From assembly GCF_017876515.1 (NCBI RefSeq), contig NZ_JAGIOC010000001.1:2604001-2668000 (forward strand): a DNA stretch of 64,000 bases, given 5' to 3'. The notes beneath the pieces are model-generated. The model made no database searches. It saw nothing but the letters and a program-made list of their open reading frames with translations, and was not told where the DNA came from. The DNA is from Brachybacterium fresconis. GTDB lineage: Bacteria; Actinomycetota; Actinomycetes; Actinomycetales; Dermabacteraceae. Below are positions 20,314 through 40,797 of the stretch, in pieces; the first letter of the stretch is position 1; each line of letters opens with the position of its first letter. The translations under genes were made by a program, and so were the position numbers.

Positions 20314-20598
20314 GGCACGCCTCCAGGGTCGCGACACCGCGACACCGCGACACCGCAACACCGCGGCACCGCGATTGTGCGCTCCACTTCCAGTCTTGGA
20401 AGCACAGCGCGCAATCGCGCCGTGGACGGAGTGGGCACGATCGCACCGGGCCGCACAGCGCGCAATCGCGCCGTGGACGGAGTGGGCACGATCGCACCGG
20501 GCGCAGGCCGGTCCGGGATCGTTCCTCCCCAAGCCCTATCCGTCCACAGCCGGGACGATGACAACCCGCGGGGACCGGCATCTCCCTACCGTCGCACC
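20314..20598. repeat. Intergenic tandem repeats: GCGACACC array and 51-bp duplication
   Basis: 20331-20372 hold five near-perfect copies of the 8-mer GCGACACC. They run into palindrome copy 2. The right arm of the palindrome starts a tandem duplication with period 51 bp (49-bp matches from 20403 and 20454), so half of the palindrome is itself duplicated. No gene is supported. Confidence 0.85.
20370..20420. repeat. Dispersed palindrome, copy 2
   Basis: The arms are GCGATTGTGCGCTCCACTTC and its imperfect complement, ending GCGCGCAATCGCGC, around CTTCCA-GTCT-TGGAAG. It lies 57 bp 3' of the response-regulator stop. The left arm carries a small insertion compared with copy 1. Confidence 0.8.
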
Positions 20599-21522
20599 AT
20601 GACGCCCCGTTGGTCCCCGAACCCCCGCAGCCTTCTGCGCCGACAGGAGCTCCTGACGCGTGGCGTCCATCCCCGTCGCCTCGCCTCGGAGGAGTTCACG
20701 GAGGTCATTCCCGGCTTCTGCACCCCGACCGATGCGCCGGCCGACCTTCAGGTGATCGCCCGGGTGCTGCAGCGAGAGGTCAGCCCCGACGCGGTGATCA
20801 GCCACGTCACCGCCGCGGAGCTCCTGCGGCTCCCCCTCCCCTTCTCGCAACGACACGACGAGCTGAACCGGATCCACTGCACCGTTGCGCCCGAGAAGCG
20901 TCGGAGGCTTGGCCCACGCGTCACGGTCCATGCCCGGCGCCCGGCACCGACCCGACGATGGCGGGGACTGACGATGAGCGCGCCCGTCGAGCTGCTGAGC
21001 GATCTCGCCGGCGAGCTCACCACGCTCGAGCTCGTCCAGGCGTGCGACAAGCTCGTCGGACCGCAGGCCGAGCGTCCCCGCGTCTCCCTGCGCGAGTTGC
21101 AGGAGCTCGTTGACCATGCTTCGGGAATCCCCGGCATCAACCAGGTCCGGCAGGCCGTGACCGAGGCACGGGAGCTGGTGGATTCGCCGAAGGAGACCGA
21201 GCTGCGGCTTCTCCTGACGGAAGAGAACTACGTCGAGCCCGAGATCAATGTCTGGGTCCGAGCTCCGAAGACCGGCGAGAACTTCCGTCTGGACCTGTCC
21301 TACCCCTGGCTGAAGATCGCCATCGAGTACGACGGGGACTGGCATCGCACCGACAGGGCGCGCCATCGACGGGACCGTCGCAAGGACGATGTGCTGCATG
21401 AGCTGGGGTGGCGGGTCGTGCGCGCCACGGACGAGGATCTGTCGTCACCCAGCAACTTCTTGGGCAGGCTGGCCCACCTCGGTGCTCCGCAGCTCCGCGC
21501 CGCGCAGATGCTCGTGGGGTGA
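20599..21522 (+). CDS. DUF559-type protein with endonuclease-like C-terminal domain
   Basis: This 307-aa protein has an N-terminal AbiEi-like region, a winged-helix-like part (RRQELLTRGVHPRRLASEEFTEVIPGFC) plus a middle domain. The C-terminal domain (about 195-300) fits the PD-(D/E)XK/Vsr-like DUF559 fold: LDLSYPWLKIAIEYDGDWH, then RRDRRKDDVLHELGWRVVRAT. The EYDGDWH acidic cluster could bind metal. Such proteins are common orphans in actinobacteria; the substrate is unknown. The ATG at 20599 has no clear ribosome site, so the transcript may be leaderless. Confidence 0.7.
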   Translation: MTPRWSPNPRSLLRRQELLTRGVHPRRLASEEFTEVIPGFCTPTDAPADLQVIARVLQREVSPDAVISHVTAAELLRLPLPFSQRHDELNRIHCTVAPEKRRRLGPRVTVHARRPAPTRRWRGLTMSAPVELLSDLAGELTTLELVQACDKLVGPQAERPRVSLRELQELVDHASGIPGINQVRQAVTEARELVDSPKETELRLLLTEENYVEPEINVWVRAPKTGENFRLDLSYPWLKIAIEYDGDWHRTDRARHRRDRRKDDVLHELGWRVVRATDEDLSSPSNFLGRLAHLGAPQLRAAQMLVG

Positions 21523-21645
21523 GGTGCGGCAGGGGCATCGGGTCACGGAACGGCGGCCACGGAAGGGCGGTCACGGAAGGGGGGTCACGGGCACTGCGGA
21601 GTCGTGGAACTCGTCGGCATGAGCTGCCCATTCGTTACTCTGCTC

Positions 21646-21697
21646 ACGCCATTGCGCTCTGAGCTTCCAAGAGCGGAAGCACAGCGCACAACCGCGT
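21646..21697. repeat. Dispersed palindrome, copy 3
   Basis: This is the most degenerate copy: CGCCATTGCGCTCTGAGCTTCC, loop AAGAGC, then GGAAGCACAGCGCACAACCGCG. The core CTTCC/GGAAG and the GCGC arms are kept. Confidence 0.75.
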
Positions 21698-21755
21698 CAC
21701 CGAGCCGGCCGCCATCGCCCTCGCACGGCCGTGCCTGCACTTCCGTTCCCGAAAA

Positions 21756-21813
21756 CTCACGCCATTGCGCGCTGGGCTTCCAGTATCGGAAGCACAACGC
21801 GCAATGGCGTGAG
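21756..21813. repeat. Dispersed palindrome, copy 4
   Basis: This is the longest copy. The outer arms CTCACGCCATTGCGCG and CGCGCAATGGCGTGAG are exact complements, followed inward by CTGGGCTTCC / GGAAGCACAA with a few mismatches around a short loop. Confidence 0.88.
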
Positions 21814-21880
21814 CGTGCCTCGAGGCGGGGGCGAGCCGTGTCGGAGACCCCGACCAGCACCATCGGATCCAAGACCACCC

Positions 21881-21924
21881 CATTGCGCGCTGGGCTTCCA
21901 AGAGTGGAAGCAGGGCGCGCAATG
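21881..21924. repeat. Dispersed palindrome, copy 5
   Basis: CATTGCGCGCTGGGCTTCCA, loop AGAG, then TGGAAGCAGGGCGCGCAATG. The sequence is nearly that of copy 4 but without the outer CTCACG arm. Its right end runs into the 23-bp tandem array. Confidence 0.85.
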
Positions 21925-22041
21925 GCGTCAGGGTCACGCCAGGCGCGCCGTCAAGGTCACGCCAGGCGCGCCGTCAAGGTCACGCCAGGCGCGCCGTCAG
22001 GGTCACGCACGACGGGCGCGAGAGCCGCCCGAGGCGCGGCC

Positions 22042-25965: not shown

Positions 25966-26306
25966 CTGGTCGCTCCGTCCTCGCCTGCGCGGCGATGCTC
26001 TTCCGTGCGGCGCGGTCCGATGCTGCCGGGGTACGGTGGAACACGCCTGGTCCTGAGGATGAACTCTACCCCGCCGACGCGGCAACCAGCGGCAACCCCG
26101 AGAGGTCCGGGGCTCGCGGTCTGCCGGACGCGGTGCGGCGACGGCGGCTGCCGGCGGCCCGGATCACCCAGCTGGGGCAGGCGGCGGCCTTCGGCGGCGC
26201 ACTCCCGCGCACGCTGCGTCCACGGTGAACTGCCGAGCGAACGGCCGGCTGACAGAGCTGGGGTGCCGAGACGTCACCGACAGTCGACTATGCACAATAG
26301 TCGTCG
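25966..26306. other. Intergenic region between divergent lacI-type and redox genes
   Basis: This 341-bp gap serves two divergent transcripts. The only clear element is the ACTAT-N5-ATAGT operator at its right end. Short open frames here (for example 25995-26228) show no recognisable family and were not called. Confidence 0.5.
26285..26303. promoter_or_regulatory. BlaI-type operator 1, overlapping a leaderless promoter
   Basis: CGACTAT-GCACA-ATAGTCG is a perfect 7+5+7 palindrome. It sits 3 bp before the ATG at 26307, and CACAAT inside it resembles a -10 box ending about 8 nt before that ATG. The same ACTAT-N5-ATAGT pattern occurs twice before the DsbA-like gene at 31.37 kb. Assignment to the BlaI-family regulator in this operon is inferred. 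Confidence 0.72.
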
Positions 26307-26948
26307 ATGTCGCATAGTGGCGTCATGGAACGTTCCGGGGAGTGGATGAGACGAGCGCGGGAGACGCTGGCTCTGGCCGGCACGGCACTGCGCGCCTGGG
26401 GGCCGCGCCAGGTGTCCGTGGCGATCGCCGCGGGGACGGCCGTCGCCCTGGTGATCGGTCTGGCGACCGTGCTCATCCCCAATCCGGTCTTCGCGCGCGA
26501 GATCCCGACCGTGCCGTGGAACTACCCGGTATGGATCCTCACCTCCGTTCTGATGGGGGTGCTCGTCGCGACCTACGTCCAGCCGGACGCTGAACCCTCC
26601 GGCGCGACCGCCCGGGATGCCGCCGAGGCCGGGCGGGATGTCGAGGCGACCGCACAGCCGGCCACCTCGGACACCAGCGTGCCGGTCGACGCCTCGGAGC
26701 GGCGCAGCGCCCGCGCCGGCGGAGCGGCCGGGATCCTGGCCTGGTTCGCCGTCGGCTGCCCGGTGTGCAACAAGATCGCGCTCATCGCGCTCGGCTACAC
26801 CGGGGCGCTGACCTGGTTCGCCCCGCTGCAGCCGTTCCTGGCGGCGGTCGCCCTGGTGCTCGCGACCCTCGCCGTGGTGTGGCGCTTGCGCGGACAGGTC
26901 GCCTGTCCGCTGCCCACCGTCGGCCGACGGGCGGTGACCTCGCCGTGA
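26307..26948 (+). CDS. Membrane protein with a CPVC cysteine pair
   Basis: This 213-aa protein has four hydrophobic segments: about 35-55, 72-90, 140-165 and 172-192. The third begins GILAWFAVGCPVCNKIALIALGYTGAL, with Cys151 and Cys154 as a CxxC pair at the membrane. The variable middle loop is Ala/Glu-rich. Homologues are known in actinobacteria without an assigned function. The CxxC, the BlaI/M56 genes downstream and the operator shared with a DsbA/CcdA operon point to thiol-redox work in the envelope. There is no ribosome site; an ATG at 26325 is the alternative start. GTGA overlap links it to the blaI-like gene. Confidence 0.72.
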   Translation: MSHSGVMERSGEWMRRARETLALAGTALRAWGPRQVSVAIAAGTAVALVIGLATVLIPNPVFAREIPTVPWNYPVWILTSVLMGVLVATYVQPDAEPSGATARDAAEAGRDVEATAQPATSDTSVPVDASERRSARAGGAAGILAWFAVGCPVCNKIALIALGYTGALTWFAPLQPFLAAVALVLATLAVVWRLRGQVACPLPTVGRRAVTSP

Positions 26949-27349
26949 CCGCCGCCGACCCTTCCCCCGACCGTTTCGAGCCCGTGCCCCTCGGCGCCCT
27001 CGAGCAGCAGGTCATGGATGCCCTCTGGGACGCCGGCGAGCTGACGGTCCGTGAGGTGATCACGGCGCTCGGCGACGTGCACGCCTACACGACCATCGCC
27101 ACCGTGCTGACCAATCTCGACCGCAAGGGCATGATCCGCTCGCGGCGCCAGGGCCGCTCCGTGCACTACTCCGCCCGGCGCAGCCGCTCCGAGCATGCCG
27201 CGCTGGTCATGGAGCACGCGCTGTCGGCCAGCAGGGACCGTCGGGCCTCGATCGTGCACTTCGTGGAGACCATGGACCCCGGCGAGGTCGACCTGCTGCG
27301 CTCGTACCTCGATCAGCACCCCGGATCTGCGGGGAGGGACGGCGGATGA
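26945..27349 (+). CDS. BlaI/MecI-family (CopY-type) repressor
   Basis: This 134-aa winged-helix repressor has the family core LGALEQQVMDALWDAGELTVREVITALG...AYTTIATVLTNLDRKGMIRSRRQGRSVHY. It dimerises through the C-terminal helices. The next gene encodes an M56 peptidase, the usual partner that cleaves BlaI on signal. The GTG start overlaps the upstream stop. No beta-lactamase is nearby, so the regulon is probably the redox genes on both sides. Confidence 0.9.
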   Translation: MTAADPSPDRFEPVPLGALEQQVMDALWDAGELTVREVITALGDVHAYTTIATVLTNLDRKGMIRSRRQGRSVHYSARRSRSEHAALVMEHALSASRDRRASIVHFVETMDPGEVDLLRSYLDQHPGSAGRDGG

Positions 27350-28377
27350 GCGTGCTGACCCCTCCCCTGATCATCGCGCTCCTGCTGGTCACGAGCGCCG
27401 TGGCGGGCCCGGCGCTGCTGCGCGCGGGGGCTCCGCTGCTCATGCGGGTCCCTCGCGCCGCCGTCGCGGTGCTGCTGACGTCCCTGGGCACCTGGCTGCT
27501 TGCGGCCGCATCGCTCAGCCTGCTCCTGGCCTGGACGCTCACGGGACCCGATCTGCTGCCCGGGGCCGTCGGCGAGGTGTGTCAGCGCTGCCTGGACGCC
27601 TCCACACCCTTCACCCCCGACCAGACCGTCGAGACGGCTCTGCCGATCGCGGTCCTCGTGGCCCTGCCGGTCCTCGGCGCTGCCGCGGTGCTCGTCCTCG
27701 GGGCGCGGCGCGCGGTTCGGGCCCGCTCCGCCGCTCGGGACGCGGCCCGGGACATCACTGCCGGTGCCCGCGCTGTCCGCCTCGCCGGTCACGACGTCTG
27801 GCTGGTCCCCGACGAGGAGCCCGCGGCCTTCGCGCTGCCCGCCGGCCTCGGCGGGATCGTGGTCTCCGCAGGGCTGCGACGGGCCCTCAGCGACGCGGAG
27901 CTGAGGGCCGTCCTCGCCCATGAGGGCGCTCATCTGCGCCAGCGTCATCATCTGGTGCTGTCGGCGACGCGCTCCCTCGCGGAGCCGCTGCGCTGGATCC
28001 CGCTCGCGGCGGCGATCGCCGACGCGGTCCCGCGCTATCTCGAGATCGCCGCCGACGAGAGCGCCCGCCGGTGTTCCGGAACCCGTTCGCTGGCCAGTGC
28101 TCTGTTGAAGATCGGTGCCCCTGTCCGCCCCGCGACCTCGGCGGCCGCTGCCCCCGCGACGGCCGCTGCGCCGGCAGGTCCGCTGCTGCATGCGGGGCTG
28201 CTGCACGCGGGTGGTCCGGATCGCATCCGCCATCTGGTCGCGCCGGCCGGGACGGGATCGGCTCTGCTGCCGACGGCACTGCTGTCCGGGCTGATGCTCG
28301 CCCTGACCGCCGTCATCGTCGCCGTGCACGGCCCGTACCTGCAGGTGCTGCTCGCGGGGTGCGCGATCACCGGCTGA
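27346..28377 (+). CDS. M56-family (BlaR1/MecR1-like) membrane metallopeptidase
   Basis: This 343-aa protein has transmembrane segments near residues 5-25, 35-62, 98-120 and 305-325 around a cytosolic zinc-peptidase domain. The zinc motif is HEGAH (His192-Glu193, His196) in RAVLAHEGAHLRQRHH. It lacks the extracellular penicillin-binding sensor of BlaR1, so the signal must be sensed otherwise. It overlaps the blaI-like gene (ATGA) and presumably inactivates that repressor. Confidence 0.88.
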   Translation: MSVLTPPLIIALLLVTSAVAGPALLRAGAPLLMRVPRAAVAVLLTSLGTWLLAAASLSLLLAWTLTGPDLLPGAVGEVCQRCLDASTPFTPDQTVETALPIAVLVALPVLGAAAVLVLGARRAVRARSAARDAARDITAGARAVRLAGHDVWLVPDEEPAAFALPAGLGGIVVSAGLRRALSDAELRAVLAHEGAHLRQRHHLVLSATRSLAEPLRWIPLAAAIADAVPRYLEIAADESARRCSGTRSLASALLKIGAPVRPATSAAAAPATAAAPAGPLLHAGLLHAGGPDRIRHLVAPAGTGSALLPTALLSGLMLALTAVIVAVHGPYLQVLLAGCAITG

Positions 28378-28391
28378 GGCCGCCGACGTCG

Positions 28392-28461
28392 GTCAGCGCT
28401 GAGACTCCTCGCGGTGCCGGTCAGCGCTGAGACTCCTCGCGGTGCCGGTCAGCGCGTGCCG
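28392..28461. repeat. 28-bp tandem duplication at a gene 3' end
   Basis: Two exact 28-bp copies (28392-28419, 28420-28447) starting GGTCAGCGCTGAGACTCCTC are followed by a third partial start at 28448. The third copy contains the stop codon of the beta-propeller lipoprotein gene, so the duplicated unit came from that gene's end. It lies between two convergent genes. Confidence 0.85.
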
Positions 28462-29669
28462 TAGTCCTCGTCGAAGGTCGTGGTGACCAGGTAGCGGGCC
28501 CCGTCGACGTCCACTGCCGCCGCCGAGTCGGCGGAGAAGATCTCGGGGACGGCGAGCGCACCCGTCTGGTCGACGTCATAGGGCTGGACCATGCGTCCAT
28601 GCGAGGTGTCCAGCACCACCAGGGTGCCCTCCTCCTGCCGCTGGGCGTAGGCCAGGCGCTCGCCCGCGGTGATGAACCGCAGCTGCTCGGCGTCCTCGTG
28701 CCGCCAGCTCTCCGAGCCATCGGGATCGAGACCTCGCACCGTGGTCCCGGCGGCGAGGACGGTGACGTCCAGGACGTGGTCGTGGGCCACCTGATCGGCG
28801 TCGCGGGCGATCACCTGTCCGTCGGCGAGGTCGATCACGGTCCCGGCTCCGCTGCCGTCGCCGAGGACCGCGTACCCGGTGTTCGGGTCGATGCGCGGGC
28901 CGATGGCGCTCCGCTCGGGCTCGAGCCCCTCGGGCAGCGCGATCCGCCATCGCTGTTCGCCGTCGGCCGCCTCGAGCGCGACCAGCTCGTCGCCGTCGAT
29001 CATGACGACGACGCCGCCGTGCTCGGCCAGGATCCTGCCGCCGTCGAGCTCCTCCTCGGTCAGCGCGATCTCGCCGGTTCCTGCGACCAGGGCCGTGCGC
29101 GTCTGCGCCGAGCCCATCGGGGCCTCCTCCGTCGCGGAGTACACCATCCCCTGCGCGGCCTGCGGGCCCGGCACCTCGACCGGGCCCCAGCGCACCTCGG
29201 CGGTGCGCAGGTCGTAGCCGGTCAGGCTCGTGGCCAGTGGGGCACCGCCTTCCGATGCCGTATCGGCCAGCACCGCGATGGCGGTCCCGTCGGGGTCGGC
29301 CGAGAGGCCGTACCCGGTGCAGCTGAGCGGTCGCTGCGCCTGCCACAGCAGCGTGCCGTCCTGGGCGACGGCCCGGAAGCGCAGCCGGTCACCGGCGTCG
29401 GAGTACCCCAGGAAGATCCCGTCCCGCTCCAGGGGCGTCGCGGTCCATCCCGGGTCCACCACGATCATCGGGGTCATCTCCAGCGGCAGGCGCAGCTCGT
29501 TGGCGTCGACCGTGTCGGCGCGTTCCTCGACCACCGTCGGAGCGGGGTCGACATCGACGTCCGACGGTGCGCCGGTCCCCTTCGAAGGGTTCGCGGGCTC
29601 GTCGGAGTCGCAGGCGGCGAGCGCGAGCAGCCCCAGCGGCAGCGTGAGCGCAAGGGTGCGGCGCCTCAT
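28449..29669 (-). CDS. PQQ-like beta-propeller lipoprotein
   Basis: This 406-aa exported lipoprotein has signal MRRRTLALTLPLGLLALAAC with the lipobox Cys at residue 20. The mature part has repeated propeller blades with Trp-containing turns (LLWQAQRPLSC, EQRWRIALPEG, ESWRHEDAEQ). The start overlaps the CcdA-like gene stop by 4 bp, making it the last gene of a dsbA-ccdA-propeller operon. Such propellers often scaffold or sense in the envelope; no enzyme activity is implied. Confidence 0.8.
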   Translation of the reverse strand: MRRRTLALTLPLGLLALAACDSDEPANPSKGTGAPSDVDVDPAPTVVEERADTVDANELRLPLEMTPMIVVDPGWTATPLERDGIFLGYSDAGDRLRFRAVAQDGTLLWQAQRPLSCTGYGLSADPDGTAIAVLADTASEGGAPLATSLTGYDLRTAEVRWGPVEVPGPQAAQGMVYSATEEAPMGSAQTRTALVAGTGEIALTEEELDGGRILAEHGGVVVMIDGDELVALEAADGEQRWRIALPEGLEPERSAIGPRIDPNTGYAVLGDGSGAGTVIDLADGQVIARDADQVAHDHVLDVTVLAAGTTVRGLDPDGSESWRHEDAEQLRFITAGERLAYAQRQEEGTLVVLDTSHGRMVQPYDVDQTGALAVPEIFSADSAAAVDVDGARYLVTTTFDEDYGTR

Positions 29670-30538
29670 CGCCGATCCATCCGCGGCAGAACGGGCCCGA
29701 CCTCGACGCGTCGGCGGCGCCGTCGATCATGGCGCCACCACAGGGCCAGGGCGAGCAGCCCGAGCGCGGCGATCACCGCGATCTGGGCGCCGGTGCCGGT
29801 CAGCACGCTGCTGCTGGACTGCCAGCTCGCCAGCACGCTGGTGGGGATCAAGGAGGGCATGGTGACCAGGCCGTTGGTGGTCCAGAACAGGATGCCCAGG
29901 GCGATGATCACCGCGCCGGTGAGCACGGTGGTGGTGTGCAGCGTCCGACCCAGCACGGTGAACTCCCGGCCTCGCAGCAGGGAGCGGGTCCGGGCGCTGA
30001 GACGGTCCCACACGGCGGCGAGCGCCATCAGGGGCACCACCATGCCGGCACCGTAGACGGCCAGCAGGATCGCGGCGAGGACCATGCTCCCCTGCCCCAT
30101 GGCGAGGGTGAGCACGGCGCCCAGGATGGGGCCGGCGCAGAAACCGGCCACCCCGCCCACGGCACCGAGCAGGAACGTGCGCGGCAGTCCGCTGCCGCGC
30201 GAGGAGGCCTGCTGGGCACGATCGATGCCGGGCAGCGCCCGGGAGAGGTCGAAGCCGAGGCCGAGCGCGTGCATCGCCCCGAGCACGATCAGGATCACGG
30301 AGGTGACGATGACCAGAACGGTGCGGTGCTGCGCGAACATCGTCCCGAGTGCACCGGCGCCGATGCCGAGCGGGACGAGGGTCAGCACCAGGCCGAGGTA
30401 GAACGCCAGGGCGTGCGGGACCAGTCGGGCGCGGCTAATGACGGTGGCGGCGAAGAAGCCGGGCAGCAGGAACGCCCCGCACGGGCTCAGGAGGGCGAGG
30501 GCGCCGCCCAGGAAGGCGGTCAGGATCCCGATCTCCAT
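29666..30538 (-). CDS. CcdA-family thiol-disulfide electron-transport membrane protein
   Basis: This 290-aa protein has six or more membrane segments and the DsbD/CcdA pattern: start GILTAFLGGALALLSPCGAFLLPGFF with Cys in SPCGAF, and GGVAGFCAGPILGAVLTLA with the second Cys. These membrane cysteines carry electrons from thioredoxin to the outer face. Its ATG follows the DsbA-like stop by 1 bp. Together with the DsbA-like protein it forms an extracytoplasmic thiol pathway. Confidence 0.88.
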   Translation of the reverse strand: MEIGILTAFLGGALALLSPCGAFLLPGFFAATVISRARLVPHALAFYLGLVLTLVPLGIGAGALGTMFAQHRTVLVIVTSVILIVLGAMHALGLGFDLSRALPGIDRAQQASSRGSGLPRTFLLGAVGGVAGFCAGPILGAVLTLAMGQGSMVLAAILLAVYGAGMVVPLMALAAVWDRLSARTRSLLRGREFTVLGRTLHTTTVLTGAVIIALGILFWTTNGLVTMPSLIPTSVLASWQSSSSVLTGTGAQIAVIAALGLLALALWWRHDRRRRRRVEVGPVLPRMDRR

Positions 30539-30539
30539 C

Positions 30540-31319
30540 TCAGCCCTCCTTCTCGGCCAGGGCCGTATCGAGCGCGTCGGTGAACACCTCGGTGGGCTGG
30601 GCGCCGGCCATGGGCGTGCCGTCGAGGAGGAAGGCGGGGGTGGACATGGCGCCCAGCTCGATGCCCTGCTGGGCGTTGGCGTCGATGGTCGCCGCGACCT
30701 CCTCGGAATTCAGGTCCGCGGTGAACTGCTCGGTGTCCAGGCCGAGTTCCCCGGCCAGATCGACCAGCGAGTCCTCGTCGAGATCCTGCGGTGAGCGGAT
30801 CTCGCCGCCGGAGAAGAGGGCGTCGTGGTAATCCTGGAATCGGTCCTGCTTCGCGGCTGCGAGGACCGCACGGGCTGCTCGCTCGGACTCTTCCCCGTAG
30901 ATGTTCACGTCGCGGTATTCGATGCGCAGCTCTCCGCGCTCGACGTATTCGCGCAGGACGGGCAGGGTCTCGTGCGACCACTGGGCGCAGTAGGGGCACT
31001 GGAAGTCGGAGAACATCACCAGCACCACCGGGGCATCGACCGGGCCCTCGGCCAGGAGGTCGTCGGGATCACGGGCCTCCTCCTCGCTGAGGTCCGGCTG
31101 CGCCACCTGGTCGGGGTGCTCGACCGCGCCGGGCTGCTCGGTGGGCTCGCCCGTGGCGGCGGTGCCGGCCGCCTGCTCGGCATCGTCGTCGCCCCCCATC
31201 CAGATCGCGGCCACGATCAGCGCGGCCACCACGGCGAGGATCACCAGCGGAGCCAGCCAGCGGCTGCGGCGGCCGGGAGGCTGTTCGGTCGCGCTCCCGG
31301 TCGTCTGCGGGTCAGGCAT
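30540..31319 (-). CDS. DsbA-like thioredoxin-fold membrane-anchored protein
   Basis: This 259-aa protein has one N-terminal membrane anchor (LAPLVILAVVAALIVAAIW, about residues 22-40), an acidic linker and a thioredoxin domain of the DsbA type. The active site is SDFQCPYCAQWSHE (CPYC). The cis-Pro loop is probably near GAMSTPAFLLDGTPM. It would oxidise or isomerise thiols outside the membrane. The ATG at 31319 follows GGAGAACGG; the upstream GTG at 31334 is less likely. Two BlaI-type operators lie 45-75 bp upstream. Confidence 0.9.
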   Translation of the reverse strand: MPDPQTTGSATEQPPGRRSRWLAPLVILAVVAALIVAAIWMGGDDDAEQAAGTAATGEPTEQPGAVEHPDQVAQPDLSEEEARDPDDLLAEGPVDAPVVLVMFSDFQCPYCAQWSHETLPVLREYVERGELRIEYRDVNIYGEESERAARAVLAAAKQDRFQDYHDALFSGGEIRSPQDLDEDSLVDLAGELGLDTEQFTADLNSEEVAATIDANAQQGIELGAMSTPAFLLDGTPMAGAQPTEVFTDALDTALAEKEG

Positions 31320-31363
31320 CCGTTCTCCGATCACGCGGGGGAACGGCGCACCGCGGCGCCATT

Positions 31364-31396
31364 CGACTATCCGTCATAGTAACTATGGTCGATAGT
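31364..31396. promoter_or_regulatory. Pair of BlaI-type operators upstream of the dsbA-like operon
   Basis: Two adjacent dyads: CGACTAT-CCGTC-ATAGTAA (31364-31382) and ACTAT-GGTCG-ATAGT (31382-31396). Both share the ACTAT-N5-ATAGT spacing of the palindrome before the CPVC/blaI operon at 26285. The arrangement predicts co-repression of both operons by the BlaI-family protein. Confidence 0.7.
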
Positions 31397-31439: not shown

Positions 31440-31760
31440 TCAGTGCGTGCCGCCGAGCTCGATGAGCAGCACGCCGACGACGATCAGCCCCATGCCCCCG
31501 AGCATCGTCGGCGTCAGCGCCTCGCGGAACAGGACGCGGGAGAGCAGGGCGGTCAGCACGATGCCGGCGGCGGCCCAGACGCCGTAGGCGATGCCCAGCG
31601 GCATGCCCGTGGCGAGGGAGCCGGACAGGAAGGTGAAGGCGACGACATAGCCGAGCACCACCAGCAGGTAGGCGGCGCGACGACCGCCGGCGGCGACCCG
31701 CAGCGACAGGGTGGCGCCGACCTCGCTGATCACCGCAACGGTCAGCAGGATCCAGCTCAT
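31440..31760 (-). CDS. SMR-family multidrug efflux subunit (second of a pair)
   Basis: This 106-aa protein has four membrane helices and the conserved membrane Glu14 (VAVISEVGATLSLR) that couples protons and cationic drugs. GIAYGVWAAAGIVLTALLSRVLF is the helix-3 signature. It overlaps the upstream SMR gene by 4 bp. Paired SMR genes usually form an antiparallel heterodimer such as EbrAB or YkkCD. Confidence 0.9.
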   Translation of the reverse strand: MSWILLTVAVISEVGATLSLRVAAGGRRAAYLLVVLGYVVAFTFLSGSLATGMPLGIAYGVWAAAGIVLTALLSRVLFREALTPTMLGGMGLIVVGVLLIELGGTH

Positions 31761-32152
31761 GGCGCCCCCGTCCCGCTCGCAGCCGGGAGATCGCGGGCCG
31801 GCACGGGCTCCTCGCGCTGCCCGCGCCGACGGGCCCGGTGGGAGCCGACCTCGACCACCGCGACGCCGACGGCGATGAGCACGACGCCGCTGATCTTCAT
31901 CGCGGTGAAGGGCTCACCGAACAGCACCGCCGACAGCGCGGCGGTGAGCACCACGCCGCAGGCCGCCCAGATGCCGTAGGCGACACCGAGCGGCACCCCC
32001 CGGCGCAGCACGAGGGCGAGGAAGCCGAAGGAGAGGGCGTAGCCGATCACGACCACGACGTAGAGCGCGGGGTGATCGAGCGCTCCGCGCAGGGAGAGCG
32101 TCGCGCTGACCTCGCTGAGGATCGCGCCCACCAGCAGCAGCCAGGCGATCAC
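31757..32152 (-). CDS. SMR-family multidrug efflux subunit (first of a pair)
   Basis: This 131-aa protein has four helices with the conserved Glu in GAILSEVSATLSLR and the signature GVAYGIWAACGVVLTAALSAVLF. An extra 25-residue basic C-terminal tail (HRARRRGQREEPV) sets it apart from its partner and may fix membrane orientation. It overlaps both the TetR gene and the second SMR gene by ATGA. Confidence 0.9.
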   Translation of the reverse strand: MIAWLLLVGAILSEVSATLSLRGALDHPALYVVVVIGYALSFGFLALVLRRGVPLGVAYGIWAACGVVLTAALSAVLFGEPFTAMKISGVVLIAVGVAVVEVGSHRARRRGQREEPVPARDLPAASGTGAP

Positions 32153-32736
32153 CCCTCACCCCCGAGCAGGTCCAGGGCGAGGGCGTGGACAGCGTGCGCA
32201 TCCTCGGAGGGCAGCTCGAGCTGGCCCGTGGCGCGGTCGAACCAGAGCCCGTCGGCCATCAGGCGCACGGCGAGCAGTCGCTGCCGCTCCGCGACAGGGG
32301 TGCCGGCGGGGACGGAGAGCCAGCCGGCCAGCTGCTCCTGCCAGCGCGCGGTCAGGCTCACCCGCAGCTTCGGATCCGCGAAGATCACCAGATCCGCCGG
32401 GGAGAGCTGCGCGTGGCAGGCCCAGTCGAGATAGGCGAGGAAGCGCCGGTGGGCGGGCACGGCGGCGAGGTCCTGGACGCCCGTGCCATGGACGGCCTCG
32501 ATCTGGGCGAGCACCTCGCGCTCGTAACGGTCGGCGATGTGGTCCAGCACGGCCCGCAGCAGGGCCTCTTTGGTGGCGAAGTGGTACATCAGCCCGGTCT
32601 TGGTGACGCCGGCGGCGCGGGCCGCCGAGTCGAGGGTCAGGGTGCCGTCCACGCCGAGATGGGCTTCGGCGGCATCCAGCATCGCCACCCGGGCCGACGG
32701 GCGGTGGGCGGGACGGGGCGAGGGATCGGGCGCCAT
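32149..32736 (-). CDS. TetR-family repressor of the SMR operon
   Basis: This 195-aa regulator has an N-terminal TetR helix-turn-helix (AMLDAAEAHLGVDGTLTLDSAARAAGVTKTGLMYHFATKEALLRAVL). The C-terminal ligand domain is about residues 70-195. The ATG at 32736 follows GGAGGAG. It is the first gene of the operon with both SMR subunits, and a palindrome just upstream predicts autoregulation and drug induction. Confidence 0.92.
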   Translation of the reverse strand: MAPDPSPRPAHRPSARVAMLDAAEAHLGVDGTLTLDSAARAAGVTKTGLMYHFATKEALLRAVLDHIADRYEREVLAQIEAVHGTGVQDLAAVPAHRRFLAYLDWACHAQLSPADLVIFADPKLRVSLTARWQEQLAGWLSVPAGTPVAERQRLLAVRLMADGLWFDRATGQLELPSEDAHAVHALALDLLGGEG

Positions 32737-32765
32737 GAGGGCTCCTCCGGGACGACGGACCCTCG

Positions 32766-32793
32766 TTACTTTACTGCCCGTGCGGTCAAGTAA
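32766..32793. promoter_or_regulatory. TetR operator
   Basis: The left half TTACTTTACTGC and right half GCGGTCAAGTAA are inverted repeats matching at 10 of 12 positions with a 4-bp centre. It is 30 bp upstream of the TetR start. Size and half-site spacing are usual for TetR dimers. Confidence 0.68.
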
Positions 32794-32827
32794 GCAATGG
32801 GGTGCACTCACGACCCTGAGGCCCTCC

Positions 32828-32854
32828 GGTATCACAGTGATACCATGTAGGTAT
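32828..32854. promoter_or_regulatory. Overlapping palindromes at the toxin-antitoxin promoter
   Basis: GGTATCAC-A-GTGATACC (32828-32844) is a perfect 8+1+8 palindrome. It overlaps a second, ATACC-ATGTA-GGTAT (32840-32854), which ends on the antitoxin ATG at 32853. Nested GGTAT/ATACC half-sites suit a ribbon-helix-helix antitoxin that binds cooperatively to its own promoter. The transcript may be leaderless. Confidence 0.7.
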
Positions 32855-33056
32855 GGCTATGACACTGCGACTGAGTGAAGCGGACGAGAAGACCCTTTCG
32901 GACCTCGCCCGCCAGGAAGGGATCAGCCGCCAGGAGGCCACGGTACGAGCGATCCGGGAGACGGCGGCCCGGCGCGGCCATCAGCAGGCCGTCAGCGAGA
33001 TGTCGGAGCGGGCGCGAACTCGTTACGCGGAGCTGCTGGATCGCCTCGCACAGTGA
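32853..33056 (+). CDS. Ribbon-helix-helix antitoxin
   Basis: This 67-aa protein begins with the RHH strand MAMTLRLSEADEKTLSDLARQEGISRQEATVRAI, typical of CopG-like DNA-binding antitoxins. The basic C-terminal tail would wrap the toxin. It overlaps the Doc gene by GTGA. An ATG at 32859 is also possible. Palindromes at the start suggest autorepression, strengthened by the toxin. Confidence 0.85.
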   Translation: MAMTLRLSEADEKTLSDLARQEGISRQEATVRAIRETAARRGHQQAVSEMSERARTRYAELLDRLAQ

Positions 33057-33421
33057 ACTCGACGAACCACCTCGGTCTCGAGGATCTCCTGGCGCTCATC
33101 GACGATCTTCGCATCGGGCCGGTGCGTGATCTCGGGTTGCTCGAATCTGCTGCCCACCGGCCGACGACGACGCTCTGGGGCACCGAGGCCTACGACGGTC
33201 TTGACCGCAAAGCGGCCGCTCTGCTGGAGTCGATCGTCCGCAATCATGCCCTGCCCGATGGGAACAAGCGACTCAGCTGGCTGGCTGTGGTCGTGTTCTA
33301 TGGTCTCAACGACATCGATCTCGATGCCCCGGATGACGAGGCCTATGACCTGGTCATCGCCGTGGAGACGCGCGATGTGAGCCTCGAGGAGATCGCCGCA
33401 GCTCTTTCCGGCTGGCGATGA
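33053..33421 (+). CDS. Doc-type Fic-family toxin
   Basis: This 122-aa protein belongs to the Doc group of the Fic fold, which phosphorylates EF-Tu in the known case. The motif is NHALPDGNKRLSW (catalytic His65), compared with the family HxFx(D/N)(A/G)NKR; the usual Phe is Leu here. The helix ESAAHRPTTTLWG matches the Doc N-terminal region. It has a GTG start inside the antitoxin stop. It is complete, so probably active. Confidence 0.88.
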   Translation: MNSTNHLGLEDLLALIDDLRIGPVRDLGLLESAAHRPTTTLWGTEAYDGLDRKAAALLESIVRNHALPDGNKRLSWLAVVVFYGLNDIDLDAPDDEAYDLVIAVETRDVSLEEIAAALSGWR

Positions 33422-37174: not shown

Positions 37175-37636
37175 ATGAGAGCTGGGCACCGTCTGTCGAT
37201 CTTCGACGACGACCCCACGGGCTCGCAGTGCGTGGCTGGGATCGATGTCGCCTTCGCCGACGATCCGTTGATTCCGGTCGCAGCGCTGGCCGAGCCGGAC
37301 TCCGCATGCTTCGTCCTGACCAACGGTCGGGCCCTCGACGAGGATCGTGCGATCGCCGTGAACCGCCGGTTGGTCCGGGGAGATGCTGCGAGCGGGCATC
37401 CCACCGAGCGGGATGCATGTGGTCTCCCGCTCGGACTCACCCGACGCTCGATGGGGCGGGTGATCGGAGGGCAAAGGGTCCGCGGCGTTCTTCGACGTCG
37501 CCGGCCACGTTATCGCCCTGGGCGGGTACGTTCCGCGCGACGTCGACCCGTTCGCGATCGGACTACCCCGGCAGTCGACGCGCCATCCGCCGCGAGCCCG
37601 CGCTACGCCACTCCGGAGGCCTCCGCCCCGTCGTAG
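37175..37636 (+). pseudogene. Four-carbon acid sugar kinase remnant (DUF1537/OtnK-like N-terminus)
   Basis: From ATG 37175 the frame encodes RLSIFDDDPTGSQCVAGIDV, then FVLTNGRALDEDRAIAVNRRLV. The DDDPTGSQ block is the substrate-binding start of OtnK/DtnK-type kinases. After about 75 codons similarity moves to another frame (MHVVSRSDS, expected SRSDSTLRG), showing a frameshift, and the remaining 300 residues are absent. The frame then runs by chance to 37636. With the isomerase remnant it marks a decayed acid-sugar catabolic operon. Confidence 0.65.
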
Positions 37637-40600
37637 GCGATTGCGAAGACGTGCAGGTTCTCGTTGCTCGGGAAGGTCACGGCGGCGATCTGCGTCCCGT
37701 CGGGCGCCGACCAGGCGTCGGTAGCGTAGACATAGGTGGTGCTCGCCTCGCCGGAGTTGTGATCCATCGTCGCCACCACGGTGTTGCCGTCGATCGGGGA
37801 GCCGTCCTCGCTCGGCAGCACCCAGTCCCCGAAGGAGATCGGCACGTCCTCCGTCGTGCCGTCTGTGAGCTCGACGGACACCGTGTCATCGACGGTGCCG
37901 TGGGTGCCGAGGCCAATGAAGGAGATCGACCCTGCCGGACCGGGCGGCTCGACCCGTTGTCCGTCGGCGGTTATGGTGTTCGGACTGCCCGGGGCCACGT
38001 CGGGCCACTGGAATGCCAGGCCGTGCACGTCGTGCTCGGACCCCGGCACGAGGCCCGTAGCGGCGAGCGCCTCCTCCGACAGGCTGTTCCCCGAGCCGTC
38101 GAGGTCTCCCGGTGAGGAACCATCGTCCGGGGAGCTGCCGACGGTGTTGAAGGACGCCATCATCGACCCGGGCGGGGCGACGCGAAGCCGGACCGGCAGC
38201 GTCCTGACCTCGTCGGACCCCTTGCGACCTACCGTGAGCCGCACGTTGTGGTCCCCGATGGCGACCTCGTCCGAGACGGTAAGGGCGATATCGGCGACCA
38301 CCTGCCCGGAGCTGTCCGGGCGCAGGGGCCGTGCCGTGGCCGAGATGTCCTCGGGCGCGTCGATGTCGACGGCCACCGGCCGGTGGTTTCCACCGAACGC
38401 CTGCACGGTGGTGGTGAGGACGGCGGACTCTCCCGGCGCGACGGTCTGGAAGGACGGCGTCGCCGTCGCGACGAGCTCGGATTCGCCGTCACGGAACGAC
38501 GGCGGGGCCGCATCCTCCCCGGTGCCCCAGTCCTGGTCCGGTGAGTCGGACATCGTCAGGTCGATGACGCCGCCCTCGGCGATCAGCTGCTCGGGCAGGT
38601 AGGTCCGATCCCACGGCTCCCCGTCGACCTTCATGCCAGCGATGTATCTGCCGCCGTCAGCAGCGCCCGGGGCCAGGATCTCCAGCTGCTGTCCCTCGCC
38701 CAGGTCGACCTCGACCCGTTCGAAGCGCGGGGCGTTGAGCGTCAGCACATCGGTGCCGGGCGTGGAGGGGTACAGCCCCATCGCGGCCCACACGTACCAC
38801 CCGGCCTGTGCGCCGAGGTCGTCATTGCCAGGCTTGCCGTCCGGCGTGGGCTGGAACAGCTCGGCGATGACGTCGTCGACGAGCTCCGAGGTCCGCACTG
38901 GCTGGCCGACGTAGTTGTACAGCCAGGGCACGCCGAAGTTCGGCTCATTGCCGATCCACAGCTTCGGTGCGCCGTCCCCGGCGTTGTACTCGGTGGTGAA
39001 CTCGTCGAGCCGCGCGATCGTAGCCTCCCTCCCGCCGAGCGCCTCGACCAGGCCCTCGACGTTCTGGGGGACGAGCCAAGTGTACTGGTGATCGTTGCCC
39101 TCGTCGAAGCCCTCCTGTCCGAAGCCGGGTCCGGATCTCGGCTCGATGAACGCCCCGGACTCGGAGCGCGCGGACATCAGGTCGGTGGCCGGGTCGTAAA
39201 TGTTCTGCCAGTACTGTCCGCGTTCCTGGAACTCGGTCGCGACCTCGTCCCGGCCGGTGGCGGTGGCCAGCTGCCCGATCGCGAAGTCGGCGATCGACCA
39301 CTCCAGGGTCACCGAGGCGCCGACGATCCCGTGGTCGCCGCGGAACTCCTCCGTCTGGGGGCCGTACCCGAGCTCGAGGTAGCTCTCGAGCCCGGGTCGC
39401 TGCACGTACCCGTCTGTGTCCGCGGGGGTTTGCGTGGCGCCCTTGATCATGTAGTCCAGGGCGGACTCCACGTCGAAGTCACGGGCCCCGAAGGCATACA
39501 TGGACGCGATCAGCGGGACGGAGGAGTCCCCCGTCATCTGCCCGGTCGGCTGGTTCGCCACCGGCCATCGGGGGAGCCACCCGTACTGCACGGCGTCGTT
39601 TACCAGGGACTGCGCCATGTCAGAGGCGCGCTCCGGCACGAGGATCGCGTGCAGTGCGGCGAGTGAGCGGTAGGTGTCCCAGTCGGAGAAGTTGGCGTAC
39701 TGGGTGTGGCCGGGGGCGACCTCGTGGATCTCGCCGTCGAAGCCGACGTAGCGCCCGTCGACGTCGTTGAAGGTGTTCGGGTGCATCAGCGAGTGGTACA
39801 GCGAGGTGTAGAACATCGTGGTGTCGGAGTCGGCCCCTCCGGAGACCTCGATCCTGCCGAGCATCTCGGCCCAAGCGTCGCGATTGGCCTGCTGGAGGGA
39901 ATCGACATCCCACGCGGGAATCTCGGCGGCGAGGTTCGCTGCGGCCCCGGCCGCGTCCACGTAGGAGATGGACGACTTGACGGTGATCTCGGATCCGGCC
40001 GGGAACGTGAGCCAGGCGCCGGCCGTCTGTCCGTCGGCCGTCGCCTCGCCCGGACGGAGCTCGCCGTCCTGCCAGGTGCCGAAGTCCTCGACGGCGGTGT
40101 CGAACTCCATGACGAAGTGGGTGGTGTGCTGGTTGTCCTTACCGCAGAACCCGCCGGTGGTCACGGCGCCGGTCACGGTGCTCCCCTCGACCTGCAGGTC
40201 GACGTCGTAGACGCTGGCCTTCGAGCCGCCGGCGTCGAGGATCACTTGGGCCGGCTCGGACTCCGGGAAGTCGAAGGTCATGCCGGCGGAACGGGTGGCC
40301 GCGAACAGCTCGACGTCGATGTCCGAGGACTCCAGCGTGACGGCGTACCTCCCGACCTCGGCGGATTCGACGTCGTGCGAGAACTGCTCGGTGCGGTCCC
40401 ACGGCGTCTCGCCGACCTCCCCGGTGACCGGGAGCAGCGGGAGGTCGCCGAACACGTTGCAGCCTGCGGCCGCGTGGGTCAGGCTGAAGCCGCTGATCTC
40501 GGAGTCGGAGTGCCGGTAGCCTGCGTAGGAGCTCGGGGTGTCGGGCGAGACCTGCACCATCCCGAAGGGCATCGACGGACCGGGGAAGTTGTTGATCTCC

Positions 40601-40797
40601 CCGACCACGGCTCCCGTCGCCGCACCTGTGCCCACCATCGGGTTGACGTGGTCGAGGGGATCGTGCACCGCCGCCTCGCCGCTTCCGTTCGCGGGTGGGG
40701 CCGCCGCTGCGCCGACCGTCCCGCCGACGCTCAGTGCCAGTGCCGTCAGTAGTGCCGCGGCACCGCGTGCAGTTCGTGCTCTGGTCAAGGGTCTCAT
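37603..40797 (-). CDS. Secreted GH92 alpha-mannosidase (first of three)
   Basis: This 1064-aa exo-alpha-mannosidase has signal peptide residues 1-33 ending AAAAPPANG. The GH92 domain runs from about 48 to 770: VNPMVGTG, PSMPFGMVQVSPDT, GFSLTHAAAGCN, WLYNYVGQP and GNDDLGAQAGWYVWAAMGLYP. An Ig-like linker and a C-terminal beta-sandwich follow (FNTVGSSPDDG to GDWVLPS and VFAIAYDG), as in other actinobacterial GH92 and GH38-type enzymes. GH92 enzymes need calcium and trim mannan or N-glycan mannose. A LacI operator lies 113 bp upstream. Its 3' end overlaps the kinase remnant. Confidence 0.94.
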   Translation of the reverse strand: MRPLTRARTARGAAALLTALALSVGGTVGAAAAPPANGSGEAAVHDPLDHVNPMVGTGAATGAVVGEINNFPGPSMPFGMVQVSPDTPSSYAGYRHSDSEISGFSLTHAAAGCNVFGDLPLLPVTGEVGETPWDRTEQFSHDVESAEVGRYAVTLESSDIDVELFAATRSAGMTFDFPESEPAQVILDAGGSKASVYDVDLQVEGSTVTGAVTTGGFCGKDNQHTTHFVMEFDTAVEDFGTWQDGELRPGEATADGQTAGAWLTFPAGSEITVKSSISYVDAAGAAANLAAEIPAWDVDSLQQANRDAWAEMLGRIEVSGGADSDTTMFYTSLYHSLMHPNTFNDVDGRYVGFDGEIHEVAPGHTQYANFSDWDTYRSLAALHAILVPERASDMAQSLVNDAVQYGWLPRWPVANQPTGQMTGDSSVPLIASMYAFGARDFDVESALDYMIKGATQTPADTDGYVQRPGLESYLELGYGPQTEEFRGDHGIVGASVTLEWSIADFAIGQLATATGRDEVATEFQERGQYWQNIYDPATDLMSARSESGAFIEPRSGPGFGQEGFDEGNDHQYTWLVPQNVEGLVEALGGREATIARLDEFTTEYNAGDGAPKLWIGNEPNFGVPWLYNYVGQPVRTSELVDDVIAELFQPTPDGKPGNDDLGAQAGWYVWAAMGLYPSTPGTDVLTLNAPRFERVEVDLGEGQQLEILAPGAADGGRYIAGMKVDGEPWDRTYLPEQLIAEGGVIDLTMSDSPDQDWGTGEDAAPPSFRDGESELVATATPSFQTVAPGESAVLTTTVQAFGGNHRPVAVDIDAPEDISATARPLRPDSSGQVVADIALTVSDEVAIGDHNVRLTVGRKGSDEVRTLPVRLRVAPPGSMMASFNTVGSSPDDGSSPGDLDGSGNSLSEEALAATGLVPGSEHDVHGLAFQWPDVAPGSPNTITADGQRVEPPGPAGSISFIGLGTHGTVDDTVSVELTDGTTEDVPISFGDWVLPSEDGSPIDGNTVVATMDHNSGEASTTYVYATDAWSAPDGTQIAAVTFPSNENLHVFAIAYDGAEASGVA

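Follow-up and report, generated by a model that had tools for sequence, protein, structure and literature searches.

The window analysed here, 64,000 nucleotides of the Brachybacterium fresconis genome, holds two short operons that converge tail to tail. The plus-strand operon encodes a small membrane protein with a CPVC motif (here called CPVC), a BlaI-family repressor and an M56 membrane zinc protease, with overlapping start and stop codons; the minus-strand operon encodes a DsbA-like protein, the transmembrane thiol relay CcdA and a beta-propeller protein. The comparisons below indicate that a single BlaI-type repressor very probably governs the two operons by way of ACTAT-N5-ATAGT sites preceding the first gene of each. 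The M56 protease is the best candidate for the sensor, and it plausibly releases the repressor upon a thiol-type stress in the envelope. We consider the regulon well supported. An earlier note on this DNA had proposed that one BlaI-type repressor governs thiol-redox genes, and this is supported, the DsbA-like protein with its CPYC motif and CcdA being such genes; the two units, which it had described as lying back to back, in fact converge, with the sites at their outer ends.

Operator-like sites and their coupling to BlaI

The window contains three exact copies of ACTAT-N5-ATAGT, once before CPVC-blaI-M56 and twice before dsbA-ccdA-propeller, just as the earlier note had read it, while 100 dinucleotide-preserving shuffles of the window contained no exact copy. 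A scan for further sites, also proposed there, was run over the whole genome of 4,628,988 bases; it returned no exact copy beyond these three and none of the reversed pattern, which served as a control. When up to two mismatches are allowed, 47 forward matches are found (3 exact, none with one mismatch and 44 with two) compared to 222 for the reversed control; one of the 44 lies 17 bp after the first site and represents a degenerate second copy. The classical sequence TACA-N2-TGTA is the operator of the studied BlaI/MecI members and not a feature of the Pfam family as such; it is absent from the window, and from the interval -400 to +100 of the CPVC start in all 80 related loci.

These related loci come from GTDB genomes scanned with an alignment of CPVC sequences, where 80 of 132 confirmed loci were kept; blaI was scored as present within 3.5 kb of CPVC, and an exact site within 6 kb. 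The loci are not independent, as five of them (L053, L054, L059, L060 and L062) together with the plasmid locus L254 look like a single island, and several Nocardia loci are close to each other. Over their 1.34 Mb we found 128 sites, against none for the reversed pattern. A blaI gene is present in 67 loci (one of them, L067, with another BlaI type of 33% identity), and 62 of the 67 carry an exact site, the other five (L051, L056, L061, L063 and L064) having a one-mismatch site near the CPVC start; by comparison, only one of the 13 blaI-less loci (L082, a contig of 4.6 kb) has a site (Fisher p = 1.2e-9).

Sorted by downstream gene, 82 of the 128 sites precede both CPVC and dsbA, 20 dsbA, 9 CPVC and 8 a gene family that we call f34; the rest precede dsbA and f34 (2), dsbA and the propeller gene (2), a CsoR-like gene (2), blaI and the propeller gene (1) or the propeller gene (1), leaving a single site (L067:2823) that precedes none of the tested genes. 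Among the 67 blaI loci, M56 is found in 65, dsbA in 63, ccdA in 62 and the propeller gene in 38; unlike in the window, 54 of them have dsbA diverging from CPVC at a distance of up to 1 kb, while dsbA lies elsewhere within 6 kb in 9 and was not seen in 4. The product of f34, the third target to recur (L059:14900-15484; L045:4230-4826), is a membrane-anchored protein of about 195 residues with several cysteines, which looks sortase-like by eye and has no Pfam match; it is associated with 8 to 10 of the 128 sites, mostly in one island and in L045. On Rhodococcus plasmids, exact sites (L257:1659, L264:1671, L262:11972) lie between genes for an apolipoprotein N-acyltransferase and an MMPL transporter, a possible further member of the regulon.

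Of the 47 close site pairs in the 80 relatives, 33 are spaced by 17 bp and 10 by 16 bp, with 34 bp in three pairs and 32 bp in one. Measured from the end of the nearest upstream site to the CPVC start codon, the gap deviates by no more than 2 bp from 7, 24 or 41 in 43 of 49 loci (24 in the window), and these three values form one 17-bp register. The longest CPVC reading frame starts at 26307; because Met7 is invariant in 28 aligned sequences (the window and 27 others), and because of the 17-bp register, the CPVC start is probably the ATG at this residue.

The window's own genome (G000) has a single PF03965 gene, the window's blaI, and likewise a single CPVC gene. The family comparison comprised 47 genomes. 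Eleven of these contain the exact site, and the same eleven have a BlaI that is 59-99% identical to the window's and is encoded beside a CxxC-bearing M56; site and this BlaI type thus occur together in 11 of 11 against 0 of 36 (Fisher p = 5.7e-11). The other BlaI matches in the family (44% identity or less, or unaligned) have no site in the loci fetched, and none of the six such loci with a readable M56-like frame shows the CxxC. A phylum-wide pattern scan of 296 genomes carries little weight alone, since in many genomes control matches were as numerous as sites; a CPVC match was found in 23, of which six have an exact site (G000, G049, G164, G174, G261 and G290), adjoining CPVC only in G000, G049 and G261.

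The M56 protease as sensor candidate, and the CPVC protein

The window's M56 protein is a membrane gluzincin with an HExxH motif, and its model aligns to BlaR1, yet it ends at residue 343, shortly past its last helix (304-336), and a Pfam scan of it detects no penicillin-binding domain. Instead it has a CxxC in a predicted extracellular loop, equivalent to the BlaR1 signalling loop EL1, and a third cysteine near the C-terminus; loop CxxC and C-terminal third cysteine are found in 64 of 67 rows of the M56 alignment, while the CxxC is found in 0 of 27 other M56 proteins. Because of these cysteines, a point that the earlier note did not have, the predicted release of the repressor upon envelope thiol stress acquires a concrete basis. 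M56-like matches as such occur in 106 of 148 genomes of the class, and some other actinobacterial M56 proteins have a loop cysteine plus a tail cysteine. A diverged CPVC-BlaI-M56 operon is present twice in G290 (L173 and L174), and there the M56 likewise has a single loop cysteine and a tail cysteine.

The repressor is a winged-helix protein that matches Penicillinase_R (PF03965) with 89.6 bits against a curated cut-off of 22.6. CopY_TcrY scores 34.9 bits, below its cut-off of 122; CopY proteins carry a C-terminal cysteine metal motif, and the translated window BlaI lacks it, having no cysteine at all. A regular expression for [HQR]-F matches 61 of 70 M56-linked BlaIs and 0 of 5 others, a zero that stems partly from the flanking letters required, so we draw no contrast from it; R-F or N-F was found in the BlaIs of L061, L252, L253 and L067. 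Staphylococcus aureus BlaI is cut at Asn101-Phe102, according to passages of PMC9834060, and the x-F bond of the window-type BlaIs would sit in the equivalent region. In three Arthrobacter loci of one lineage (L061, L252 and L253), where no M56 of this type was detected, the BlaIs share a cysteine pair (..TGCQF.., ..CLxRF..), which suggests that BlaI itself may be the thiol sensor where M56 has been lost; the BlaI of L063, also without M56, has other cysteines.

From the sites, their exclusivity and coupling to this BlaI/M56 type, the conserved cysteines and the BlaR1-like model, all of which the sequences show, we infer binding, repression, proteolysis, the topology of the cysteines and the inducing chemistry in the following way, and we think it probable that this is a proteolytic circuit of the BlaR1/BlaI type rewired to envelope thiol chemistry. 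BlaI dimers would occupy the ACTAT-N5-ATAGT sites, often in tandem at 16-17 bp, and repress both CPVC-blaI-M56 and dsbA-ccdA-propeller. M56 would be the sensor, with the CxxC of the EL1-equivalent loop and the cysteine of the extracellular tail forming a three-thiol switch. The state of this switch would shift when the space outside the membrane becomes thiol-reactive, be it through disulfide stress, through reactive sulfur species or through a soft metal such as Cu+. M56 would then cut the C-terminal part of BlaI, perhaps at the common H/Q/R-F bond, leading to induction of both operons, and the DsbA-like protein, the CcdA relay, CPVC and the propeller protein would repair or buffer extracytoplasmic thiols. 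More tentatively, and with the odds somewhat against it, we speculate that the M56 clade consists of thiol-switch proteases that exchange disulfides with envelope thiols, either via the regulated DsbA or with persulfides directly, so that reduced or persulfidated DsbA would tune BlaI cleavage in a feedback loop.

The earlier note had cast CPVC as the redox-active sensor, a role that we reject in view of truncations and of blaI-free relatives. In two genomes of the same genus (G318 and G332) the gene is cut to frames of 54 and 62 residues, despite the retention of blaI, M56, dsbA, ccdA, the propeller gene and the sites; in the other nine of the eleven site-bearing genomes CPVC is complete, although the G309 copy lies on another contig without blaI or site. 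Conversely, G330 has CPVC and neither a BlaI-family gene nor a site, and blaI-less CPVC relatives extend far into the phylum, where 16 translated sequences (of 18 loci) keep GCP[VTI]CNK and the C-terminal cysteine. CPVC, DsbA and CcdA also occur together, in the same orientation, in other arrangements; a Streptomyces plasmid, for example, has CPVC next to DsbA-CcdA and a CsoR-family regulator, and no BlaI is listed there. Since CPVC is truncated in G318 and G332 and follows the circuit less closely than the other genes, the circuit does not depend on it, and CPVC is most readily regarded as one of its targets; in our view it looks like an effector.

The nature of this protein is hinted at by few comparisons. 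The window's CPVC matches no Pfam or NCBIfam family at E values up to 0.1, its AF2 model is weak (pLDDT 70.5, pTM 0.52), and Foldseek with this weak model gave nothing better than E 4.1. MerT (PF02411) matches 7 of 28 members at E up to 1, the best at E 0.0064, below the family cut-off, and the single alignment shown scores 11.5 bits against a cut-off of 32.9; the likeness of the last two CPVC helices to MerT is weak, and we treat it as a lead only.

The inducing stimulus and alternative readings

Genes near the related clusters suggest thiophilic stress, with sulfur and metal groups both fitting, and a thiol-type stimulus for the regulon is likely. Six loci (L037, L039, L043, L045, L047 and L088) have thioredoxin genes no more than 1 kb from CPVC. 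MBL-rhodanese genes are found in 11 of the 80 loci, or about eight independent groups; their frequency in the order (30 copies over 205 Mb in 59 genomes) would predict about 0.2. TauE genes are found in 10. CopB-type ATPase genes are found in four (L016, where it is next door, L022, L044 and L061), and a copper/heavy-metal ATPase gene is also present near the G309 cluster (L221). On plasmids, where 13 regions were read out of 61 records with a match, six contain sulfur genes and six a P-type ATPase gene, two having both and three neither. Three of the CsoR-family regulators that were read lack what we take to be the copper-site His motif, and a fourth, on Rhodococcus pRB29, has the His.

It is possible, though we would not call it probable, that the inducer is a reactive sulfur species (persulfide, polysulfide or products of H2S), in which case the cluster would serve a CstR-type sulfide response as its extracytoplasmic arm. 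The excess of MBL-rhodanese genes is in line with this, as are the Streptomyces plasmid, which groups a CsoR-family regulator without the copper-site His with CPVC, DsbA, CcdA, rhodaneses, TauE and DUF302, and Arthrobacter plasmids that combine CPVC-BlaI, DsbA-CcdA-DsrE and MBL-rhodanese-TauE. However, an MBL-rhodanese gene is absent from the stretch examined in the majority of the 80 loci, the nearer of the two MBL-rhodanese genes in the window's genome is about 55 kb away from CPVC, and mobile islands collect unrelated resistance genes.

The same circuit could instead respond to a soft metal bound by the M56 cysteines, with Cu(I) the foremost candidate ahead of Hg/Ag, with DsbA-CcdA working like Scs and CPVC like a MerT-type carrier; this we regard as unlikely. 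The ATPase genes near four of the 80 loci, in G309 and in the six plasmid regions would fit, as would the weak MerT matches and the DsbA-like protein, whose matches among 33 PDB sequences include entries with copper resistance or suppression of copper sensitivity in their names. Yet the sulfur genes are no rarer than the metal genes, the MerT alignment shown is far under the Pfam cut-off, and the window BlaI is free of cysteine.

A circuit for beta-lactam or cell-wall stress like BlaR1/MecR1, with the thiol genes as incidental targets, seems very unlikely to us: BlaI and M56 are homologous to BlaI/BlaR1, and mycobacterial BlaI is tied to the beta-lactam response (PMC12565901 and PMC8265638), but this M56 lacks the penicillin-binding domain, 115 of the 128 sites precede CPVC and/or dsbA, and, in agreement with the earlier note, no beta-lactamase was found among ten proteins scanned around the sites. 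Least credible of all is that the sites belong to another regulator and that BlaI is merely linked to them genetically; L067 and L082 carry sites although the stretch examined shows no BlaI of this type, but site and this BlaI are jointly absent from 36 of 47 genomes, other BlaI types of the family come without the site in the loci fetched, and in G309 the site of the dsbA operon shares its contig with BlaI, about 8 kb away, while the CPVC gene on a blaI-less contig has none.

Features of the window and relation to known systems

Table 1. Genes and operator-like sites of the two convergent operons (positions in the window)
Feature	Position	Strand	Remarks
Operator site 1, ACTAT-N5-ATAGT	26287..26301		ACTATGCACAATAGT; upstream of CPVC-blaI-M56; conserved in relatives
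Degenerate second operator	26304..26318 (G000:C1:2630304-2630318)		8/10 fixed bases, 2 mismatches; 17-bp spacing seen in relatives
CPVC protein, small membrane protein	26325..26948	+	CPVC (C151/C154 in numbering from 26307) and C200 are invariant; without a Pfam family; probably an effector
BlaI-family repressor	26945..27349	+	PF03965, E=2.3e-25; GTG start overlaps CPVC stop; no cysteine; sole PF03965 gene of the genome
Sensor-less M56 membrane zinc protease (M56/M48-type)	27346..28377	+	ATG start overlaps blaI stop; HExxH 192-196; CxxC of the predicted extracellular loop is C79/C82, C-terminal cysteine is C339
PQQ-type beta-propeller (PQQ_2)	28449..29669	-	PF13360; lipoprotein-like N-terminus (LAAC, by eye)
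CcdA (DsbD_TM) transmembrane thiol relay	29666..30538	-	only cysteines C20 and C134
DsbA-like membrane-anchored thioredoxin-fold protein	30540..31319	-	PF13462/PF01323; CPYC (C108/C111); GTG start at 31334 also possible
Operator site 2	31366..31380		ACTATCCGTCATAGT; upstream of dsbA-ccdA-propeller
Operator site 3	31382..31396		ACTATGGTCGATAGT; 16 bp after site 2; 16-bp spacing in 10/47 close pairs of relatives

Between the convergent M56 and propeller genes lies a tandem repeat of a 28-bp unit (28390-28445). Directly upstream of dsbA (31440-32835) are two small multidrug resistance (SMR) genes and a TetR-type regulator gene, an order also seen in G309 (L171) by sequence resemblance. Further out, the window contains, at 20368-21994, a 23-bp tandem array, a 50-nt direct repeat without mismatches, and a 70-nt repeat in four copies that by eye includes an inverted repeat; a Fic/DOC-family gene preceded by a small frame that is ribbon-helix-helix-like by eye, perhaps a toxin-antitoxin pair (32854-33421); and a glycosyl hydrolase family 92 gene (37603-40797).

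With BlaR1/BlaI and MecR1/MecI of Staphylococcus the circuit has in common a Penicillinase_R repressor, an HExxH membrane zinc protease and a model that aligns to BlaR1. It also resembles BlaR1/BlaI in its overlapping blaI and M56 genes and, presuming the equivalence proposed above, in an x-F bond at the part of the repressor that is cleaved in S. aureus (passages of PMC9834060). The window M56 differs in having the predicted extracellular CxxC and the tail cysteine in place of a penicillin-binding domain, the operator is ACTAT-N5-ATAGT and not TACA-N2-TGTA, and the targets are thiol-redox genes. Repressor and protease families are thus the same, while sensor, operator and targets are different.

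Mycobacterium tuberculosis also has an actinobacterial BlaI, and the closest solved structure to the window BlaI is 2g9w (E 6.6e-13), which we take to be this protein, Rv1846c, presumably neighboured by the M56 protein Rv1845c. The targets named in passages of PMC12565901 include an ATP-synthase-linked gene and cell-division genes, and no dsbA-ccdA regulon appears in those passages. CopY copper repressors belong to the same repressor superfamily, but the window BlaI has a protease partner and no cysteine. The ScsABCD and DsbD-DsbC relays likewise pair a DsbA/ScsC-like protein with a DsbD_TM-type transmembrane relay; unlike DsbD and ScsB, the window CcdA consists only of DsbD_TM/DsbD_2 domains in 290 residues, without flanking soluble thioredoxin-like domains, and would be under BlaI/M56 control. 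In some loci, finally, rhodanese, MBL-rhodanese, TauE and CsoR-family regulator genes co-locate with CPVC-DsbA-CcdA as in CstR persulfide operons; CstR is a cytoplasmic thiol sensor, whereas control here would be exerted by BlaI and a membrane protease. Searches of the open-licence PMC literature found no paper on BlaI/M56 control of dsbA-ccdA, several of the result lists being mostly unrelated.

We know of no answer to the question of what sensor-less BlaR1-like proteases sense. For one such family, three cysteines, a defined operator and a small regulon offer a compact and testable answer, and natural gene losses separate the sensor from the effector. In many actinobacteria, to judge from these genes, a BlaI/M56 pair appears to control envelope thiol handling and not penicillin resistance, with three cysteines replacing the antibiotic sensor. 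If this is true, it would mean that an envelope thiol response can operate via regulated proteolysis of a repressor, and that a BlaI/M56 annotation should not be taken by default as a sign of beta-lactam resistance. If the thiol-switch reading holds as well, the co-varying pair of loop and tail cysteines in other short M56 proteins would point to a general sensing principle for the sensor-less BlaR-like proteins of Actinobacteria.

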